Part shown: positions 859 through 26,776 of the stretch, one piece after another
How the letters are laid out: each line of letters opens with the position of its first letter
Position numbering within the stretch: the first letter of the stretch is position 1
Assembly: GCA_026401075.1 (NCBI GenBank)
Contig: JAPLNQ010000243.1
Coordinates: forward strand, 1 to 50,067
Source of the DNA: Planctomycetia bacterium
GTDB lineage: Bacteria > Planctomycetota > Planctomycetia > Pirellulales > UBA1268
DNA length: 50,067 nucleotides
Direction of reading: 5' to 3'
Position numbers and translations under genes: made by a program
The notes under the pieces: generated by a model
The model's input: only the letters and a program-made list of their open reading frames with translations
Told to the model about the DNA's origin: nothing
Databases searched by the model: none

Positions 859-984
859 GTAGCCGGGGATCGGCTGAAGCTCGAGGAGCTTTTGGATTTT
901 TCGACCTTCTGGGGAATGAGCTGTCGTAGGTCGTGGAAGGAGAAAAAGCCACTGCGACGAGACTTCTGCCGTCCCCGGCGGTTG
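859..984 (+). repeat. dispersed repeat family 3, copy A
   Basis: This is a roughly 125-bp unit just after the barrel gene. It begins with GTAGCCGGGGATCGGC and ends with CGACGAGACTTCTGCCGTCC. The same two ends recur, with a variable middle, at 13071-13191 (inverted) and at 25537-25649. Copies A and B also share the inner sequences GAGGAGCTTTTGGATTTTTCG and GAAAAAGCCACTGCGACGAG. It has no coding capacity of its own that I recognise. Confidence 0.75.
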
Positions 985-13051: not shown

Positions 13052-13070
13052 GGGAGTCAACTGAATCGCA

Positions 13071-13191
13071 CCGCCGGGACGGCAGAAGTCTCGTCGCAGT
13101 GGCTTTTTCGCCATCACGCGATGCGATAGTGCTTTGCCGGGCAGGGGCGAAAAATCCAAAAGCTCCTCGAGCTTCCGCCGATCCCGGCTAC
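13071..13191 (-). repeat. dispersed repeat family 3, copy B (inverted)
   Basis: The reverse complement begins GTAGCCGGGATCGGCGGAAG and ends CGACGAGACTTCTGCCGTCC, matching copy A at both ends. The central 40 or so bases differ from copy A. Confidence 0.75.
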
Positions 13192-13352
13192 GCGTACGAC
13201 TGCTTCGCAGGATGCGAAGCGCAGCACCAGCCGGCGGATGCCGGCCAAGAAACTGGCCAAGGACGGGCATCCGCCCGTCAGGGCGACAGGATGTCGTGTT
13301 TTTCGTGAAGCAGCCTCGCTACGGTGTTCGGGGAGCCCGCCCTCGTTGATTT

Positions 13353-23994: not shown

Positions 23995-24224
23995 CGCGGC
24001 TGCCGGCGGTGACTGCCCGGGAACTGGTTGTCGTGGCCGAAAAGCTCGGATTCGTTTTGGATCGGCAAAAGGGCAGCCATGCCGTGTTCATCCGGGCAGC
24101 GGGAGACGAACGGCAGCGGATTGTGGTGCCGATCCACAAGGGACGCACCTTGAAGCGGGGAACGCTGCACGGTCTCATTGCGGACATGGGCATCACGGTC
24201 GAAGAATTCGTGGAGATGCTGTGA
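23991..24224 (+). CDS. hicA: HicA family mRNA interferase toxin
   Basis: A 77-residue HicA with the dsRNA-binding-like fold: 'TARELVVVAEKLGFVLDRQK', the active-site histidine in GSHAVF (His30), 'RIVVPIHKGRTLKRGTLHGL' and a C-terminal helix. The toxin cleaves mRNA, halting translation when HicB is lost. The catalytic motif is intact, so the pair looks functional. It sits between carB and rlmKL; a 22-base gap separates it from rlmKL. Confidence 0.9.
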   Translation: MTRLPAVTARELVVVAEKLGFVLDRQKGSHAVFIRAAGDERQRIVVPIHKGRTLKRGTLHGLIADMGITVEEFVEML

Positions 24225-24246
24225 CCTTCGACCGATCGAGAGCGTG

Positions 24247-26679
24247 ATGGACGTGGTGCGATTTCCTGCAGTGCCTCCCACCCCCCGGCCGTTGCCGGCG
24301 CCGTCGCCTGACGAGCCGCCGCGGATGACCGCGCGGACGCTTGAAGGCCTCGAGTGGATCCTCGCGCAGGAGTTGGAGCGTGTGGGGGCGCAGGACCTCC
24401 GCATCGGTCGGCGGACAATCGAGTTCTCGGCCGCTCCCGGGGCTGAAAAGGAGACGCTCTACCGGGCGGTGCTCGAGAGCCGCGCGGCGATCCGCGTGCT
24501 CGAGCCGCTCGGACGGTTTCGCGTCGACTCGCCCGACTCGCTCTATCACGCGATGCAGGAGGTCGACTGGACGGAACAGCTGAAGATCTCCGACACGCTG
24601 CGGGTCGATGCCGCGATCCACGACACGTTTCTGACGCACTCGCTCTACGCCGCCCAGATCGTCAAGGATGCGATCGTCGACCAGCTCCGCACGCCGAGTG
24701 GCAAGCGTCCGAGCGTGCAGCTGCGGGGAGCGACGCTCCGGCTCGGGCTCCATTTGGTAGGCGACGTGGCGACGATCTTCCGCGACGCCGCTGGTCGGTC
24801 GCTCCACCAACGGGGCTGGCGGATGGGGGAGGTTGACGCGCCGCTCTCCGAAGTGCTCGCCGCCGGCATCCTCGGGATCACGGGCTGGTGGCACGCTGGC
24901 GAGCGTGCCCAGGAGTCGTCAAACGACGAGCCATTGTTAGACCCGATGTGTGGCTCCGGCACGCTCGTCATCGAGGCGGCCACGATCGCCGCGCGGATCG
25001 CGCCGGGGTTGTATCGCGCGAGGCGGAAGGCGCACGGCTTCTATAAGTTTCGCGACTGCGACCGCGGCCTCTTTGACCGGCTGGTGGCGGAACTCGAGGC
25101 CCGCGTCCGGCAGCCGGCCGGAGGCTTTCAGGCCAGCGATCTCGATCCCAATGCTGTCGCTGCGGCGAAGGCCTGCGCCGAGGCGGCGGGCGTGGCAGCG
25201 TGCATCACGATCGACGTGAAACACTTCGAGCAAGCCAGGCCGGCGGGGGCGGGCGGGCTCGTGGTCACCAATCCTCCGTATGGCGAACGCCTGCCGCTGC
25301 CGCGGTCCGCCGCCTTCTTCAGGCGGTTTGGCGACTGGCTCGTGCAGCAGTGCGGTGGCTGGCGGGCGGCCATCCTCTCGGCCGACACGCCTGCGGCCGG
25401 CCAGCTCGGCCTGCGGCCCACGTATCGCGTGCCGCTCTTCAACGGTCCGATCGCCTGCCGACTTTTGGAACTGGAGATCAAGCGGCGCGATGTTCCGCCT
25501 CCCCCGGGAGACACAGGCACCCCCGACGCTGAGCGACGGGATCGGCGGAAGCTCGACGAGCATGGGAGCTTTCGCCCTGAGGAGGAAAGCGGCTCCGTAG
25601 AGGGTGACGGCGAAAGATCCCCGCGAGGAGACTTCTGCCGTCCCGGCGACAATCCGGACGGCTTCAATGCCCCGGCTCAGGCCCCTGCATCGGCCTCCGG
25701 CCGCCCGCACATGCGCACGACCGACGATCAGATCGGCGACTTCCGCCGGCGGCTCGCCAAGCGGTTCAAACATCTTTCCAAGTGGGCCCGCCGCCAAGGG
25801 ATCGAAGCGTTTCGTGTCTACGACCGCGACATTCCCGAGATCCCGCTGGTGATCGACTGGTATGCCGGCTGGCTCCACGCCGCCGAGTATGAGCGGCCGC
25901 ACGAACGCACCGACATCGAGCACGACGTCTGGCTCGACAAGATGATCGAGGCGGCGGCGTTGGAACTTGGCGTGCCGTCGATGCAGACCTTCCTGAAGGT
26001 TCGCCGCCGCCAGCGAGATGGTGGGCAGTATGAAAAAGTCGACCAGCGGCAGGCGGTGCTTGCGGTGAAGGAGGGAGATCTGTCGTTCGAGGTCAACCTC
26101 TCCGACTATCTCGATACGGGACTGTTCCTCGACCACCGTCAGACGCGGGCCATGGTCCGCGGCGAAGCCGAGGGGAAGCGGATGCTCAACCTCTTCTGCT
26201 ACACCGGAAGTTTTTCGGTCTATGCGGCCGCGGGCGGGGCCAAGGAGACGGTGAGCGTCGATCTCTCAAACACCTATCTCGAGTGGACGCGGACGAACCT
26301 CGCGAAGAATGGCTTCAAGGACGCGGGCCGCCACCGGATCGTGCGGGACGAAGCCCGCGCTTTCCTCGAGCACCGGGCCAATCGCGGCGAGCCGCCGTTC
26401 GATCTGGTGGTGGTCGATCCGCCGACCTACTCGCGGTCGGCGAAGAGCGAGACGCCGTGGGACATCGAGCGCGACCATGCCGAATTCCTGGAATTGGTGG
26501 CCAGGAATCTCATCACCGGGGGCATCGTCTATTTTTCGACCAACTTTCGCCGGTTTCATCTCGCCGAGGAGCGGCTGTCGGCCCTCTACACCTTCCGCGA
26601 GATCACCAATCGCACGATCCCCGAGGACTTCCGGAACGAACGCATTCACAGAGCCTGGCGGCTGGTGAAGCGGGGGTAA
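24247..26679 (+). CDS. rlmL: bifunctional 23S rRNA methyltransferase RlmKL
   Basis: An 810-residue fusion of RlmL and RlmK. The RlmL half has a THUMP domain (about 30-175), SAM motif LLDPMCGSGTLVIEAA (230-245) and the catalytic NPPYGE (342-347), and makes m2G2445. The RlmK half has LNLFCYTGSFSVYAAAGGA (647-665) and DPPTYSRS, and makes m7G2069; both act on the large-subunit rRNA. The linker of about 80 residues is low-complexity, and bases 25537-25649 (residues about 431-468) are a copy of dispersed repeat family 3, read in frame as RKLDEHGSFRPEEE...RGDFCRPGD. ATG 24247 starts the protein; an earlier in-frame start would overlap hicA. A strong hairpin follows the gene. Confidence 0.92.
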   Translation: MDVVRFPAVPPTPRPLPAPSPDEPPRMTARTLEGLEWILAQELERVGAQDLRIGRRTIEFSAAPGAEKETLYRAVLESRAAIRVLEPLGRFRVDSPDSLYHAMQEVDWTEQLKISDTLRVDAAIHDTFLTHSLYAAQIVKDAIVDQLRTPSGKRPSVQLRGATLRLGLHLVGDVATIFRDAAGRSLHQRGWRMGEVDAPLSEVLAAGILGITGWWHAGERAQESSNDEPLLDPMCGSGTLVIEAATIAARIAPGLYRARRKAHGFYKFRDCDRGLFDRLVAELEARVRQPAGGFQASDLDPNAVAAAKACAEAAGVAACITIDVKHFEQARPAGAGGLVVTNPPYGERLPLPRSAAFFRRFGDWLVQQCGGWRAAILSADTPAAGQLGLRPTYRVPLFNGPIACRLLELEIKRRDVPPPPGDTGTPDAERRDRRKLDEHGSFRPEEESGSVEGDGERSPRGDFCRPGDNPDGFNAPAQAPASASGRPHMRTTDDQIGDFRRRLAKRFKHLSKWARRQGIEAFRVYDRDIPEIPLVIDWYAGWLHAAEYERPHERTDIEHDVWLDKMIEAAALELGVPSMQTFLKVRRRQRDGGQYEKVDQRQAVLAVKEGDLSFEVNLSDYLDTGLFLDHRQTRAMVRGEAEGKRMLNLFCYTGSFSVYAAAGGAKETVSVDLSNTYLEWTRTNLAKNGFKDAGRHRIVRDEARAFLEHRANRGEPPFDLVVVDPPTYSRSAKSETPWDIERDHAEFLELVARNLITGGIVYFSTNFRRFHLAEERLSALYTFREITNRTIPEDFRNERIHRAWRLVKRG
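25537..25649 (+). repeat. dispersed repeat family 3, copy C, inside the rlmKL coding region
   Basis: The unit starts CGGGATCGGCGGAAGCTCGA and ends GAGACTTCTGCCGTCCCGGC, the same ends as copies A and B. The interior has diverged but keeps GGCGAAA before the right end. It lies wholly in the interdomain linker and keeps the frame open. Confidence 0.7.
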
Positions 26680-26711
26680 GTGGTTGACGGTATCCGCTGC
26701 AGACCCGGAGT

Positions 26712-26737
26712 CCCCCGGCTTCCGCCGGGGGCTTTTA
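26712..26737 (+). terminator. rho-independent terminator after rlmKL
   Basis: An 8-bp perfect GC stem, CCCCCGGC (26712-26719) with GCCGGGGG (26724-26731), has a TTCC loop and is followed by CTTTTA. It sits 33 bases after the rlmKL stop and before the liv operon. It would end the hicBA-rlmKL transcript. Confidence 0.7.
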
Positions 26738-26750
26738 TGGGAGTCGGCAT

Positions 26751-26776
26751 CATCCGTGAGGGACATGGGCAGCCCC
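26751..26776. repeat. dispersed repeat family 2, fragment
   Basis: ATCCGTGAGGG is joined directly to the terminus CATGGGCAGCCCC (26764-26776). Both motifs occur at the two ends of the full copy at 4751-4847, so this looks like an internally deleted copy. Confidence 0.55.

Follow-up and report, generated by a model that had tools for sequence, protein, structure and literature searches.

A dispersed hairpin repeat of one planctomycete family occurs in frame within the interdomain linker of RlmKL and is conserved at silent positions of its stem arms

Palindromic repeats read as part of proteins are known from Rickettsia, where RPEs of 105-146 or about 150 bp lie in frame in many genes (PMC2229807, PMC10969869), and from Wolbachia, where WPE-like insertions are likewise found in frame (PMC4224334). 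In the parts of these accounts that were consulted, the elements measure 100-150 bp, form a long stem-loop, occur both between genes and in frame in conserved genes, and are tolerated by the protein; such coding palindromes have usually been read as tolerated selfish DNA. The consulted parts of the REP/BIME literature (GTAG and CGTC super-families) describe palindromic, mainly intergenic repeats that at times occur within ORFs and are also known in planctomycetes (PMC3733652). The MITEs ERIC, Correia/NEMIS and RUP are small, non-autonomous-looking elements with inverted ends and long stem-loop transcripts, some of them in frame, according to the sections consulted of PMC2229807 and PMC10969869. 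A literature search, conducted mostly at the level of search results, found no earlier account of the repeat, either for planctomycetes or for RlmKL.

Here, we analyzed a palindromic repeat found in a stretch of 50,067 nucleotides, the window, from a Planctomycetia bacterium (contig JAPLNQ010000243.1). This repeat has a short form of about 80 bp and a long form of about 120-125 bp, folds as a covarying hairpin and has inverted ends, as do RPEs and WPEs; unlike them, it does not enter many unrelated genes, and among 160 copies tested it clearly spans essentially one. It also belongs to another phylum, and the likeness refers to descriptive features. By analogy, it would work like an RPE and is at most a putative member of that class. 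Two further differences are the presence of two subfamilies in one linker and the near-frozen silent sites of the stem arms, a point absent from the consulted parts of the RPE and WPE accounts. With 80-124 bp, the repeat is larger than REPs (20-40 bp), the GTAG/CGTC tag is not constant, GTAG preceding the stem in some copies only, and Y1/RAYT genes do not appear to follow its copy number in the incomplete drafts compared. Terminal inverted repeats are shared with MITEs, but no target-site duplication was evident by eye at the one empty site compared.

The first-pass annotation of the window had proposed three copies of one repeat that are well conserved at the ends and vary in the middle, two of them intergenic and one within rlmKL, between its methyltransferase domains, and all of this held. 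A covariance model (CM), built from 23 copies of the same genome with the rlmKL copy among them, placed the three at 859-983 (+), 13069-13192 (−) and 25531-25651 (+), and their alignment displayed the conserved ends and the variable middle. One conserved end, GAGACTTCTGCCGTCC, was matched exactly at 959, 13077 (−) and 25628, with a chance expectation of 0.67 matches in the window even when up to three mismatches are allowed; the other, GGGATCGGCGGAAGCTCGA, had three matches with at most one mismatch, and 0.10 were expected with up to three. Copies 1 and 2 are long forms and were judged intergenic from the ORF list; the site of copy 1 is empty in the relatives G001, G002 and G004, and the copy of G002 at the site of copy 2 has a different middle. 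The rlmKL copy is also a long form, of the subfamily here called type A, occupies 25531-25653 (+) and reads ERRDRRKLDEHGSFRPEEESGSVEGDGERSPRGDFCRPGDN, with orthologues in G002, G003, G004 and G061. Its open frame was as annotated, while the proposed gain of about 38 residues was an underestimate, the homologous stretch spanning 41 codons. The copy probably extends about 10 bp more on either side, because dispersed copies of G061, a sister lineage, share the flanks GATGCTGAG...GACCAATGCGG. Given the E-values and the chance controls, we rejected a coincidental similarity of the linker to the repeat and regard it as practically negligible: the rlmKL copy scored 112.8 bits in the CM search (E 1.1e-19, the copy itself being in the model), it matched copy 2 by blastn, independently of the model, with an E-value of 8e-15, and the ends are above chance. 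Other dispersed palindromic repeats, e.g., AAACGCAGTTTGCTGGTGCTGCG...CATCCTGCGAAGCAGTC and ACAAGTTGAAAACTTGCCGCCAC, were observed at 13190-13300 of the window and at many loci, where they repeatedly adjoin the hairpin repeat and give rise to mosaics. Just 3' of rlmKL, at 26700-26760, T-rich sequence follows a strong GC hairpin (CCCCCGGCTTCCGCCGGGGGCTTTT), and a hairpin resembling it was found at the copy-1 site of G003.

The gene rlmKL, for the bifunctional 23S rRNA methyltransferase, was assigned at 24178-26679 (+) from NF008748, PF01170, PF10672 and sequence similarity to 3v97. Its ORF of 833 aa reached 662 bits with NF008748, the RlmKL model of NCBIfam (cut-off 466), and the TTG at 24178 is probably upstream of the true start. 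The repeat copy is situated between the PF01170 and PF10672 domains and encodes about 41 charged residues, their translation being suggested by the open and conserved frame. In an AlphaFold2 model based on a 22-sequence alignment, the entire interdomain linker (25480-25710 (+); model residues 391-462) had pLDDT values below 50 and is predicted to be disordered, and the flanking domains were mostly confident. On this model, the linker looks like a tolerant landing place for the repeat. Mimicry of 23S rRNA helix H74, the target of RlmK, was considered and rejected: against the G007 23S locus with flanks, the repeat scored below its shuffles, 197 of 200 of which equalled or exceeded it. For a stretch of at most 100 bases around the helix, 11 of 500 shuffles did so, but this test was chosen after seeing the sequence and was therefore discounted.

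In the genome of the window (G000; 301 contigs, 4.16 Mb), at least 31 copies were collected by CM search. With up to 60 candidates scored per genome, the CM was positive in 33 of the 36 genomes of the same family, the negative ones being G005, G006 and G030, and in none of 23 genomes from other families of the order. In a phylum-wide sample of 199 genomes, at least two of which overlap the previous survey, the own genome was the sole positive and none of the 198 others had a match; here 17 candidates were scored per genome, so that weak relatives may escape. Positive genomes carried from 1 to at least 107 copies, the latter in G017. The relatives named here are planctomycete MAGs, some of them of freshwater origin to judge from record titles, e.g., the Lac Pavin record. 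In G003, a different insert occupies the copy-1 site, and the insert of G000 at this site is longer than the repeat itself. Since there are empty orthologous sites and, in genomes such as G017 and G004, equal-scoring copies at several places, the repeat moves or once moved. Genes for a Y1 transposase/RAYT (PF01797) were present in G000 and absent in G017 and G004, with no tie to copy number in these incomplete drafts. A switch between long and short forms was observed in 2 of 16 pairs of orthologous intergenic sites. The dispersal of the repeat and its presence or absence at orthologous sites indicate that it entered rlmKL, in agreement with the annotation, which had read the locus as a non-coding repeat recruited into protein.

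We scored a subset of 160 copies, among them 25 of the at least 31 in G000, for an ORF that runs across the copy and has coding-like codon use in both flanks, a crude test in which 5% of true coding windows fell below −0.25 and 10% of non-coding windows exceeded 0.11. Clear spanning on the coding strand was found only in six rlmKL copies (G000, G002, G003, G004, G061 and G059), all in the same frame. Three other cases, L228, L109 and L209, were antisense and marginally over the threshold, which the antisense frames of rlmKL also pass. Two copies, L003 and L238, lie at the end of an ORF. The first of them (1399-1522; G000:C49:1599-1722), a long form, is read in the frame used in rlmKL and gives its gene a new C-terminal tail, and four orthologues of this gene in the genus end in a conserved NVAF/NLAF tail. 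Open frames alone were rejected as an explanation for the choice of frame, as 68 of 104 dispersed copies have the rlmKL frame open, and as many as 96 have one of the antisense frames open.

The history of the insertion was followed on a tree of the two RlmKL domains without the linker, with 50 tips, 39 of them in the group; the partial genes of G021 and G032 were omitted from the 52 gene sets, and the gene of G002 is partial. Early-branching members of the family have linkers of 21-35 residues with no repeat, and the other repeat-free linkers are unrelated in sequence and of varied length, so the linker is not conserved by amino acid in species that lack the repeat. Copies were found in the linkers of 12 of the 39 group tips; they belong to two subfamilies, and the frame is kept in all 12. 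Type A (long; ERRDRRKLDE...RGDFCRPGD) is present in G000, G002, G003, G004 and G061, and type B (SRDRxEDxER...) in G059, as a long form, and in G001, G024, G060, G062 (L128), G063 (L138) and G007. The motifs RDR and RP/RPG recur in the repeat-bearing linkers. CM support was strong for all five type A genomes as well as G059 (E 6e-21 to 5e-12), less strong for G001 (4e-5), G024 (0.001) and G060 (0.006), and weak for G062 (0.095); G063 and G007 had no CM match in their linkers. The copies of G062, G063 and G007 were counted from similarity to the G001 copy (1.1e-9 for G062 and 1.6e-10 for G063) and from the palindrome seen directly. Not counted as carriers were G017, whose similarity is partial (E 1.1), and G015, which retains a remnant at most. 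In G007, the linker (L287, G007:C12) carries in-frame tandem units of 117 bp (39 residues) that contain the type B repeat and run across an assembly gap. In the tree, G001 falls within the type A species, and its domains are close to theirs, both being 85-97% alike to those of G002 outside the junction windows, but its linker has been replaced and is of type B. From this type B linker within type A-like domains and tree position, the linker of G001 appears to have been exchanged between subfamilies. Both types are dispersed families, type B having 25 matches in G059. Taken as sequence comparison, these data indicate that the recruitment into rlmKL is old and common to several species. In another relative (L127, JAIXPT010000353.1), a unit of about 14 residues (HEARSGSDGTNGHH) is repeated in frame five times, almost identically, in the same rlmKL linker, with no clear link to the hairpin repeat.

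The repeat folds as one long hairpin with imperfect inverted ends. Its outer stem has about 16-20 pairs and a T bulge that is nearly constant, followed by an internal loop and a copy-specific tip; z-scores ranged from −2.8 to −4.5 in the nine sequences folded. In the rlmKL copy, the 5' arm spans 25531-25569 (+; 13 codons) and the 3' arm, predicted to pair with it, 25612-25653 (+; 14 codons), and the variable middle between them, 25570-25611 (+), is the apical part of the hairpin, with pS 0.22 and pN 0.20 over 10 pairs of genomes. In an alignment of 82 distinct copies from several genera, which is fitted to the model and hence biased towards it, 95.9% of the stem cells were paired and 17 of the 21 stem pairs had changed on both sides. 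None of 500 shuffles matched this alignment on any of five measures, and slid controls had at most 57% paired. In the distant genus represented by G024, the stems are very different in sequence and pairing is retained. When only the 12 in-gene copies were analyzed, 93.2% of the stem cells paired, versus 33-48% for slid versions, and 7 of 16 pairs had changed on both sides; of the five measures, the one for further pair types was not above the shuffles (377 of 500). This set mixes types A and B, possibly separate insertions or linker swaps, and part of its covariation may have arisen in dispersed copies before insertion. Quasi-palindrome correction during replication could maintain stem pairing without selection. 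The Rfam covariance models gave no match at E-values up to 1 in the six loci scanned.

Synonymous and nonsynonymous differences were compared among the five type A genomes, in 10 pairs that represent few lineages, as four of the five genomes are from one genus. The arms of the rlmKL copy had a pS of 0.021 and a pN of 0.024, the two RlmKL domains had pS values of 0.487 and 0.411 and pN values of 0.083 and 0.045, and the linker beside the repeat was diverged on both sides (pS 0.43-0.49). None of 2000 random blocks of 27 domain codons was as low in pS as the arms, and the lowest four of 129 windows of 12 codons were all inside the repeat. Of the 27 arm codons, 1 had undergone purely synonymous change, compared with 249 of the 506 codons in the domains (Fisher p 9e-7, indicative only, as codons share a tree and are not independent). 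Over the whole rlmKL repeat, pN and pS were both 0.085. Because pN is about equal to pS, these comparisons indicate that nucleotides rather than peptide are conserved in the arms, and that the silent sites there are conserved more than the protein requires. This goes beyond the first-pass annotation, as do the covarying hairpin, the old shared recruitment and the two subfamilies in one linker. The rlmKL copies are 88-98% alike mutually, and none of the dispersed own-genome copies compared comes closer to them than 80-84%; in the arms, the best own-genome match covers 55-57 of 62 positions. Recent conversion from own-genome copies was not seen, the in-gene copies being nearest to each other among the copies compared. 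The arms of orthologous intergenic copies are also conserved (16 pairs, 906 of 974 positions; four rlmKL pairs, 243 of 248), so that conserved arms may be typical of the repeat family as a whole and not specific to rlmKL.

The explanation that we consider reasonably probable is that a dispersed repeat was recruited into the tolerant RlmKL linker and that its stem has been kept as nucleic acid by selection on the hairpin. A family of hairpin repeats (about 80 or 124 bp, with a variable tip) spread within one planctomycete family, and one copy, to judge from the comparison of relatives, would have landed in frame in the linker, whose predicted disorder would tolerate the change in length. The copy has since persisted through several speciations, and, as the comparison shows, the linker has been swapped between the two subfamilies and amplified in some lineages. 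Near-frozen silent positions in the arms and, across in-gene copies, paired changes that preserve pairing show that the stem is maintained as nucleic acid, and selection on the hairpin in rlmKL mRNA or DNA would be the most likely reason. The hairpin may act as a translational pause between the domains or as a site for a factor that recognizes the dispersed copies. We tentatively put forward, as a possibility, that a once-selfish hairpin is now a regulatory stem in the coding sequence, e.g., a programmed pause at the domain border, with the peptide as a free by-product; if this were true, the two subfamilies would be interchangeable, as the stem alone would matter.

The same insertion could be a neutral passenger, a selfish hairpin repeat that is harmless in a disordered linker, with neither peptide nor hairpin being functional. 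The predicted disorder, the variation of the linker in length and sequence across the family, the loss or reduction of the repeat in relatives such as G015 and the precedents in Rickettsia and Wolbachia all fit, but silent change in the arms should then proceed at the rate of the domains, and 0.02 was observed versus 0.41-0.49, which makes this explanation rather unlikely. We give about the same, low weight to the arms being kept alike by homogenization, i.e., by short conversion from dispersed copies, interspecies recombination of the linker or repeated insertion. The linker of G001, replaced between domains that stay similar to those of G002, the switch of form at orthologous intergenic sites and the dispersal of both types speak for such events; against them, the rlmKL copies resemble each other more than any own-genome copy compared, even the best own-genome arm match falls short of identity, and the adjoining linker stretches are diverged. 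Selection on the encoded peptide, with the approximately 41 residues being functional in RlmKL, appears improbable: the intact frame in 12 of 12 repeat-bearing linkers and the recurrent motifs would agree with it, but pN is not lower than pS in the repeat, the residues are quite different between types A and B, and the segment is predicted to be disordered. The silent sites point to conservation of the nucleic acid and not of the peptide. What is new with respect to the coding palindromes known before is the comparison across a whole family, in another phylum, with presence, absence, subfamily exchange and tandem growth traceable at one site; it thus becomes directly testable if insertions of this kind remain passengers or have been put to use.

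Two observations concern individual copies of the repeat. A small hairpin (CCGCCGTTGGACCGGCGG and variants) was found nested at one shared point of the 3' arm in L196, L198, L199, L201 and L044. At L038 (G000:C80:19977-20096) and in L197, L170, L177 and L213, an intergenic copy lies at an orthologous place; the arms and the middle of the L038 copy are identical between G000 and G061 over the 110 positions compared, a further inverted repeat encloses it, and this is possibly a functional RNA locus.
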